NCBI RefSeq assembly: GCF_000420485.1 | Contig: NZ_ATVA01000012.1 | Span: forward strand, 124,001 to 188,000 | Reading direction: 5' to 3' | DNA length: 64,000 nucleotides | From: Paucidesulfovibrio longus DSM 6739 | GTDB lineage: Bacteria > Desulfobacterota > Desulfovibrionia > Desulfovibrionales > Desulfovibrionaceae | Shown here: piece by piece, positions 38,468-40,861 of the stretch | Numbering within the stretch: the stretch's first letter is position 1 | Layout: every line of letters begins with the position of its first letter | The notes under the pieces: model-generated | Seen by the model: the letters and a program-made list of their open reading frames with translations, nothing else | Database searches by the model: none | What the model was told of the DNA's origin: nothing | Position numbers and translations under genes: made by a program

Positions 38468-39007
38468 CTAGGATTTGACCAGGCAGACCTTGTCTTCCTC
38501 ATCTCGCTCCGCCACGCGCACGTCCACGTGTTCCTCGCCTTTGGTGACCACGCGCTTGCCCACGTAGTCGGCCTGGATGGGCAGCTCGCGCAGCCCGGCG
38601 CGGTCGATGAGCACCAGCAGTTCCACCCGCTTGGGGCGGCCGTAGTCGAGGAGCGCTTCCAGGGCGGCGCGGATGGTCCGTCCGGAGAAGAGCACGTCGT
38701 CCACGAGCACGATGCTGGCGCCTTCGATGTCGAAGGGAATCTCGGTGCAGTTGATGCTCGGCTGGATGTTCAGGGTGGTCCAGTCGTCCCTGTAGAGGTT
38801 GATGTCGAGTTTTCCCAGGGGAATGCGCCGACCCAGCGCCTTGTCCAGGCGGGTCTTGATGCGTTCGGCGAGATCGGCCCCGCGCCGCTGGATGCCCAGC
38901 AGCACGAGCCGCTCGTCGTCTCCGCGCCGCTCCGAAAGCTCGGAGGCGAGGCGTTCGAGCGTGCGCTCCATGCCCTTGTCGGAGAGAATCAGGCCGCATT
39001 CTTCCAT
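38468..39007 (-). CDS. pyrR: Pyrimidine operon attenuator / uracil phosphoribosyltransferase PyrR
   Basis: A 179-residue type I phosphoribosyltransferase-fold protein. The PRPP loop is VLVDDVLFSGRTIRAALEAL; other family segments are LLGIQRRGADLAERI, GKLDINLYRDDW and ELPIQADYVGKRV. PyrR binds UMP and pyr mRNA in Gram-positives; in other bacteria it may act only as a weak uracil phosphoribosyltransferase. AGGGAGA precedes the ATG at 39007. No pyr biosynthesis gene is in the window. It heads a minus-strand run with the shikimate-kinase-like and YkgJ-like genes. Confidence 0.92.
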   Translation of the reverse strand: MEECGLILSDKGMERTLERLASELSERRGDDERLVLLGIQRRGADLAERIKTRLDKALGRRIPLGKLDINLYRDDWTTLNIQPSINCTEIPFDIEGASIVLVDDVLFSGRTIRAALEALLDYGRPKRVELLVLIDRAGLRELPIQADYVGKRVVTKGEEHVDVRVAERDEEDKVCLVKS

Positions 39008-39716: not shown

Positions 39717-39745
39717 TTGACAAACCCGATTCGAATCCTTACTTC
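39717..39745 (+). promoter_or_regulatory. Sigma-70 promoter of the HesB gene with internal palindrome
   Basis: A consensus -35 TTGACA (39717-39722), a 17-base spacer and TACTTC (39740-39745). The spacer contains the perfect 10-bp palindrome GATTCGAATC (39728-39737), a candidate operator for the divergent TetR regulator. Confidence 0.45.
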
Positions 39746-39775
39746 ACGGGTTCAACAGCTATAAGGAGGACTCCC

Positions 39776-40099
39776 ATGATCGAAATCACCGCCGCTGCAA
39801 AGCAGCAGCTCGACAATTACTTCGAGGGCAAGGAAGTCCAGCCCATCCGGGTATACCTTGCTTCGGGCGGCTGAGCCGGCCCGAAACTCTCGCTGGCTCT
39901 GGATGAGCTGCACGACGACGACGAAAAGTTCGAGTCCCAGGGATTTGAAGTGGTGATCGAAAAATCCCTCTTCGCCAATACCGGGGACATCCGCATCGAC
40001 ATGACCTATTACGGCTTCACCGTGGATTCCCAGAATCCCGTGGGCGGTGGGGGCGGCTGCTCCGGCGGCTCCTGCTCCACCTCCGGATGCGGCCACTAG
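39776..40099 (+). CDS. HesB/IscA-like protein, predicted selenoprotein with in-frame TGA at codon 33
   Basis: Read straight through one TGA (39872-39874), the frame gives a 107-residue HesB/IscA-family protein: MIEITAAAKQQLDNYFEGKE, IRVYLASGG, U33, AGPKLSLALDELHDDD, IRIDMTYYGFTVDSQNPVGG, and a Cys-rich end (CSGGSCSTSGCGH) to TAG at 40097. The TGA falls on the residue that is the conserved cysteine of the GGCAGP motif in homologues, the classic Cys-to-Sec pattern. The start has AAGGAGG and a consensus -35 promoter; the end has a terminator, so the gene appears intact, not decayed. A hairpin follows the TGA directly. The role is presumably Fe-S or metal handling. selA, selB and selC are not in the window. 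Confidence 0.83.
39872..39899 (+). promoter_or_regulatory. Candidate bacterial SECIS hairpin
   Basis: Starting in the TGA codon, GAGCCGGC (39873-39880) pairs over 8 bp, including one G-U, with GCTGGCTC (39892-39899) across an 11-base loop. The position directly after the UGA fits a bacterial SECIS element, but the loop is closer to the UGA than in the best-known example. Confidence 0.5.
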
Positions 40100-40127: not shown

Positions 40128-40163
40128 AAAAAGGCGGCCTCCTTCGGGAAGCCGCCTTTTCTT
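40128..40163. terminator. Bidirectional rho-independent terminator
   Basis: AAAAGGCGGC and GCCGCCTTTT form a 10-bp stem with T-runs on both strands. It is shared by the HesB gene (plus) and the PfpI-family gene (minus). Confidence 0.85.
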
Positions 40164-40199: not shown

Positions 40200-40787
40200 C
40201 TACGGCTCGATGGTGGAGCCGAGCACCTTCAGGAACTTGGCCATCCATTCGGGGTGGGCGGGCCAGGCCGGGGCAGTGACCAGGTTTCCGTCCACGCAGG
40301 CGTTGGAAGCCGTGGCGTTGACCTCGCACCAGGTGCTGCCCGCGTCCACGACGTCGGGCATGACCGCGGGGTAGGCCGTGGAGGTCTTGCCCTTGAGCAC
40401 GCCAGCGGAAACCAGGATCTGCGGGCCGTGGCAAATGGCGGCGATGGGCTTTTTGGCGGCGGCGATCTTCTGCACGATCTCGATGACCTTGGCGTTCAGG
40501 CGCAGATATTCGGGCGCGCGTCCGCCGGGGATGACCAGGGCGTCGTACTCGTCCGCATCGACCTTGTCGAAGTCCGCGTTGAGCAGGAAATTGTGGCCGG
40601 GCTTTTCCGAATAGGTCTGGTCGCCCTCGAAGTCGTGGATCGCGGTGCGCACGGTCTGTCCCGCTTTTTTGTCCGGGCAGACGGCGTGGACCTCGTGTCC
40701 GACCATGAGCAGCATCTGGAAGGGAACCATGACTTCGTAATCTTCCACGAAATCACCGACAAGCATGAGGATTTTCTTGGCAGCCAT
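40200..40787 (-). CDS. DJ-1/PfpI family protein
   Basis: A 195-residue class I glutamine amidotransferase-like protein of the DJ-1/ThiJ/PfpI family. It has [21 protein letters not shown] at the N-terminus, [14 protein letters not shown], and the nucleophile elbow AAICHGPQ with C119. Members include proteases, deglycases and chaperones, and the exact activity here is unknown. The ATG at 40787 has AAGGAG 6 bases upstream. A single-gene unit: a consensus-35 promoter lies upstream and a terminator downstream. Confidence 0.92.
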
Positions 40788-40832
40788 ATGCTCTCCTTGA
40801 AGTTTTGCACGGTTGGCGGGTTGATTGAGAAC

Positions 40833-40861
40833 CATACACCGATACGGGAGTATCATGTCAA
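40833..40861 (-). promoter_or_regulatory. Candidate sigma-70 promoter of the PfpI-family gene
   Basis: On the minus strand, TTGACA (40861-40856), a 17-base spacer and TGTATG (40838-40833). The spacer contains GATAC-N4-GTATC, a possible operator. Confidence 0.45.

Follow-up and report, generated by a model that had tools for sequence, protein, structure and literature searches.

The question raised by this locus is how an in-frame TGA is read in a short gene related to HesB and IscA. The gene lies in a window (the whole stretch of DNA analysed, 64,000 nt) from the genome of Paucidesulfovibrio longus DSM 6739 (G000; 3.7 Mb, 99.99% complete), and apart from the TGA at codon 33 its reading frame is open for 107 codons (Table 1). 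A first-pass annotation, made from the letters of the sequence, had proposed that this codon specifies selenocysteine (Sec). With very high confidence, on the basis of sequence comparison, we consider that the gene encodes a 107-residue A-type protein of the IscA/HesB fold, in which the first conserved Cys would be Sec, inserted via SelB and a hairpin located downstream.

Table 1. Features of the predicted selenoprotein gene and its surroundings, in window coordinates.
Feature	Position	Strand	Details
TTGACA, -35-like element	39717..39722	+	by eye; found upstream of relatives too
Ribosome-binding site AAGGAGGA	39763..39770	+	by eye
Predicted IscA/HesB-family selenoprotein gene	39776..40099	+	107 residues, Sec33; ATG at 39776, TAG ending at 40099; NF038090 and PF01521
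TGA codon within the frame, predicted to encode selenocysteine; replaces the conserved Cys of GGCAGP	39872..39874	+	codon 33
Predicted apical hairpin of bacterial SECIS	39895..39909	+	stem of 5 bp, one of them G-U; loop UGGAU (5 nt); 25 nt from TGA to loop
Terminator hairpin, followed by a T-rich run	40129..40160	+	RNA folding

The sequence on both sides of the TGA had been described as family-like, and profile searches agree with this description. When C is written for U, the readthrough product scores 114.8 bits against the NCBIfam model NF038090 'IscA_HesB_Se' (cut-off 85), the match spanning residues 1–97 and all 101 profile positions; a six-frame search of the genome with the TGA left in place gives 107.7 bits for the same model. 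Pfam PF01521 is also matched (35.7 against a cut-off of 26.3). We have seen no feature that separates the window protein from NF038090. A related model, TIGR01911 'HesB_rel_seleno', gives the window protein 30.1 bits, below the cut-off of 66.35, and the UxGP motif mentioned for that family in the consulted part of a review (PMC13188914) is present in the protein; the window protein represents a subfamily related to TIGR01911 and outside it. Substitutions after the TGA are mainly at third codon positions (20 of 32 and 21 of 30 in comparisons with the two closest relatives).

The placement of the TGA at 39872 on the conserved Cys of a GGCAGP motif proved exact in its coordinates. The context in the window protein is SGG-U-AGP, and a TGA occupies the same column in 41 distinct copies of the order-level comparison, as well as in 23 of 23 members of an alignment whose members were picked from TGA copies. 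The annotation had also advised examining whether homologues have Cys at residue 33. In a motif search that permitted any residue at this column, all 20 distinct TGA-less paralogues have Cys there, with TGC or TGT at the matching codon. The 41 TGA and 20 Cys copies derive from loci of the genome and order searches plus a nearest-record search, a few of whose loci fall outside the order. The TGA copies compared are the best matches returned as loci, which are a subset of the matches listed, and the motif filter left out L018 (the host's own Cys paralogue, with no GG before the Cys), L064 and L067, with L038 contributing a Cys copy only.

The gene is ordinary for its group. The window protein is matched in 239 of the 247 genomes of the order, and nearly all of the best copies listed carry one TGA; at least 99 of these genomes have a TGA copy among the matches listed, and all 99 belong to the 217 of 247 that have a selA match. 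In a sample of the phylum, 101 of 247 genomes exceed the NF038090 cut-off, and in 94 of these a copy with TGA does so. Three members (G138:C5:110507-110818, G463:C66:233-529 and G151:C1:2110760-2111068) carry two stop codons inside the match, either both TGA or a TGA plus a TAA, and these are possibly double-Sec proteins, terminal stops or cases of decay.

Sec and Cys copies often occur together. The host genome contains a second NF038090 copy (G000:C14:38727-39017, L018:1501-1791), which has Cys in the context SCSGAS and has no GGC motif, and a Cys copy is found near the Sec copy in 22 of 46 Sec loci, some of which are the same genome entered twice. Such an arrangement would suit a programmed choice, in which UGA would act as a regulatory stop when selenium is scarce, the protein then being replaced by its Cys paralogue; selenium-dependent switching between Sec and Cys isoforms is reported for other proteins of Methanococcus maripaludis in the part of PMC11097638 consulted. 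This alternative is compatible with Sec insertion at the UGA, and we regard it as unlikely: the host's Cys paralogue stands well apart from the Sec copy (branch 0.95) and lacks the GGC motif, and its role may therefore be a different one.

An unrooted tree of 69 Sec and 26 Cys copies (95 in all), built on 94 columns, which are few for so many rows, requires at least eight changes of the Sec/Cys label. The indication of repeated switches is suggestive only, and the direction from Sec to Cys is a reading from where the Cys groups sit. A speculative and rather doubtful extension is that duplication beside the Sec copy has been recurrent, with the duplicate losing Sec and the hairpin for Cys and the Sec copy being retained, possibly giving two carriers of clusters or metals that respond to selenium as a pair and differ in their ligand chemistry. 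If this is true, Sec-to-Cys conversion would be visible many times within one gene. With so many Sec/Cys pairs, the family is well suited to the question of why Sec is retained.

Insertion of Sec at the UGA would draw on a dedicated machinery, and the first-pass annotation had suggested a search of the genome for selA, selB and selC. All three are present in the host genome over their respective cut-offs: selA (596.3 bits), which lies on contig 13 at a distance of about 3 kb from selB, selB itself (368 bits) and selC (86.3 bits, anticodon tca). They are accompanied by selD (L069; 324.2 bits, over cut-off), which has its own single in-frame TGA. The search for other selenoprotein candidates, likewise suggested, yielded besides selD two molybdopterin oxidoreductases with an in-frame TGA (L077, G000:C12:456819-458261; L078, G000:C2:33516-35159), both in the context HQARI-U-HSATVAAL and both, in our reading, formate dehydrogenase-like. 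Their TGA is followed by a hairpin, GGCTCTGGCAGAGTC (or GGCTCTGGGAGAGTC), that resembles the hairpin of the window gene, and its 5' side GGCUCUGG is common to both formate dehydrogenase-like genes and the window gene. We rejected a [NiFeSe] hydrogenase as a further selenoprotein because its full-length match has no in-frame stop.

A SECIS element is absent from the first-pass annotation and present at the locus. In the bacterial SECIS model, as given in the accessible part of PMC13188914, the apical loop has 3–9 nt, the upper stem 4–16 bp, a G stands in the first two loop positions and the distance from UGA to loop is 16–37 nt. The window hairpin agrees with the published values in loop size, loop G, stem and spacing, and also in energy, which is -9.1 kcal/mol for positions 39892-39913 (criterion for bacterial SECIS: -7.5 kcal/mol or lower).

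Conservation of this predicted RNA hairpin is, as judged from sequence comparison, the strongest evidence. The stem follows the TGA with constant spacing in all 68 distinct TGA copies examined, and all 340 pair cells in these copies are standard; two of the five stem pairs are compensatory, with both sides changing, one changes on one side and two are invariant. When the partner is slid by 1–3 columns, pairing falls to 9–48%. In a shuffle test four of five covariation measures are high, the observed values being reached by 0, 7, 0 and 0 of 500 shuffles; the fifth measure, the number of further pair types, is unremarkable, since 106 of 500 shuffles reach it. Kinship inflates the pair counts, and the contrasts with neighbouring codons and with Cys copies depend on kinship less.

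These contrasts constitute a clean demonstration of SECIS at the codon level, in which identical amino acids are encoded by different codons in Sec and Cys copies. Exactly 24 bases past the T of the TGA, GCTCTGGA[TC]GAGC occurs in 41 of 41 Sec copies and in none of the 20 Cys copies, whereas the Ala-Leu-Asp-Glu encoded at this site is found in all 41 Sec copies and also in 15 of the 20 Cys copies. Codon +8 is GCT in every Sec copy versus 1 of the 20 Cys copies, and among the 539 Ala codons of ten long ORFs of the window, some of them unproven as genes, GCT makes up 7%; codons +3 and +12 are variable among Sec copies. The phylum search supplied 30 loci, of which 29 contain a TGA copy; 26 keep GCTCTGG, and in L100, L103 and L110 GTTCTGG is paired with GAAC, a compensating change from C-G to U-A; three of the ten rows labelled 'Cys' in this set (two of L098, one of L100) match the C-terminal Cys tail and not the motif. 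The arrangement goes beyond chance: the two strands of the window together contain 1333 TGA trinucleotides, of which ten, that of the window gene included, have a hairpin of 5 bp and 5 nt with the loop G at the same offset, and the exact hairpin core of the family is found solely at the TGA of the window gene.

Folding of the whole segment was rejected as a means of identifying the SECIS, a competing hairpin being preferred: when 65 nt are folded alone, the minimum-energy structure is another, longer hairpin that includes the TGA (z -1.21), and it was the comparison of TGA with Cys copies that picked the SECIS out. In folds of 48 nt from the TGA, the apical hairpin appears in 36 of 41 Sec copies, the window being among the five without it, and when the first 15 nt are omitted it appears in all 41. 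A ribosome at the UGA would cover these first 15 nt, and we infer that this occurs in the cell. The Rfam model SECIS_1 has no match in the host genome; because it is silent in all 14 control genomes as well, this null result is uninformative.

The same data bear on two further explanations of the TGA. Readthrough by any tRNA would yield the same open frame, and the codon might therefore be decoded as another amino acid, for example Trp by near-cognate readthrough or as a result of genome-wide reassignment. However, 13 of the 41 TGA copies use TGA as their own terminator, so that decoding must be context-dependent and TGA is not generally recoded, and the Cys of the 20 TGA-less paralogues, the tRNA-Sec together with selA, selB and selD, and a hairpin that fits the bacterial SECIS model further count against such a reading, which we consider extremely improbable. 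The chance that a pseudogene or a sequencing error is responsible, a Cys codon TGC or TGT having mutated or been misread to TGA by a single base, is just as minute in view of the same-codon TGA in 41 distinct copies of the order and in 29 of 30 phylum-search loci, the open and third-position-biased frame beyond the TGA and the restriction of the hairpin to TGA copies, all of which support the earlier opinion that decay is unlikely.

The reading of the codon as Sec, proposed at the outset, is favoured alike by the Cys-column homologues, by the selA, selB, selC and selD genes and by the other TGA-containing genes, and the sequence data show family membership, a UGA at the Cys column, a conserved covarying hairpin and a complete Sec machinery. 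In the mechanism that we propose, the ribosome would meet the UGA at 39872, SelB carrying Sec-tRNA(Sec) would bind the hairpin with its loop 25 nt past the UGA, and Sec would presumably go in at the UGA in place of termination.

The protein is predicted to have an IscA fold. The AlphaFold2 model, for which the input alignment consisted of 23 window and locus proteins, has a mean pLDDT of 82.7 and a pTM of 0.71, and its five top PDB matches are all IscA or SufA (E 1e-6 to 2e-5; TM-score 0.60–0.69, query-normalised), at 20–26% sequence identity. The window protein is thus alike in predicted fold to the A-type carriers IscA and SufA of E. coli, but differs from them by Sec in place of the first Cys and by a Cys-rich tail, which from residue 91 is of low confidence and disordered in the model. 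The tail has Cys at 95, 100 and 105, in CX4C spacing, and every one of the 23 aligned sequences has Cys at all three columns. The C-terminal ligand pair of IscA is CXC; this pair of the A-type carriers is absent from the window tail, which has CX4C instead, and a canonical cluster site is therefore not established. Sec33, perhaps together with the C-terminal cysteines, may bind or transfer an Fe-S cluster, iron or another thiophilic ligand.

The first-pass annotation had considered that the gene might join a known family instead of founding a new one, noting that HesB-like selenoproteins had been predicted before. Both points are sustained, by the match to NF038090 and by HesB-family selenoproteins already in print for Desulfovibrio, in the parts of PMC1794560 and PMC1914089 consulted. 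In Table 3 of the former (2006), HesB-like appears among the selenoproteins of both D. vulgaris and D. desulfuricans, the total being 11 and the number of Sec-to-Cys events two, and the latter (2007) has a HesB family entry for D. vulgaris DVU_1382. HesB is named among known selenoproteins in the consulted part of a paper of 2005 (PMC1242214), and the HesB-like selenoprotein family is listed as TIGR01911 in the excerpts used of two reviews (PMC13188914, PMC9312934). A HesB-like selenoprotein of M. maripaludis has been identified via mutagenesis and 75Se labelling, its function being called not clear in the portion of PMC11097638 at hand. DVU_1382 is likewise a HesB-family gene with an in-frame TGA, as described in the relevant part of PMC1914089, and the window gene is presumably its orthologue. 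Our literature search found no paper for the model name IscA_HesB_Se. With good support, the window gene belongs to a selenoprotein family that has been in the literature since the mid-2000s, and it would add one confirmed selenoprotein gene to a Desulfovibrio-like lineage.

Regarding expression signals, the strong ribosome site noted in the first-pass annotation is evident by eye, and the terminator is real as judged by folding (-21.6 kcal/mol, z -4.19), by which it was recovered; a simple promoter and terminator scan at the locus had reported neither kind of element. The consensus -35 that had been claimed stands as far as TTGACA itself is concerned, which lies at most 110 nt upstream in 40 of 41 distinct Sec copies, but the scan gave no sigma-70 pair upstream of the gene and hence no consensus -10 that matches it. 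In the window (39717-39745) and in loci L020-L063, an element like TTACCT or TTACTT usually follows TTGACA after about 16–17 nt, as judged by eye on 11 upstream regions, and no good -10 is seen. A conserved TTGACA without a good -10 is perhaps indicative of an activator-dependent promoter.

The neighbourhood supports orthology of the locus, since a phosphoribosyltransferase homologous to the window gene at 38468-39007 is shared by 43 of the 50 loci L018-L067. Directly downstream of the selenoprotein gene is a DJ-1/PfpI gene (40200-40856, minus strand), for which there are no matches elsewhere among the 50 compared loci, many of which have a flank of just 1.5 kb. The AMP-binding gene beyond it does match relatives, for example L020, and the DJ-1/PfpI gene may be an insertion within an otherwise conserved neighbourhood.
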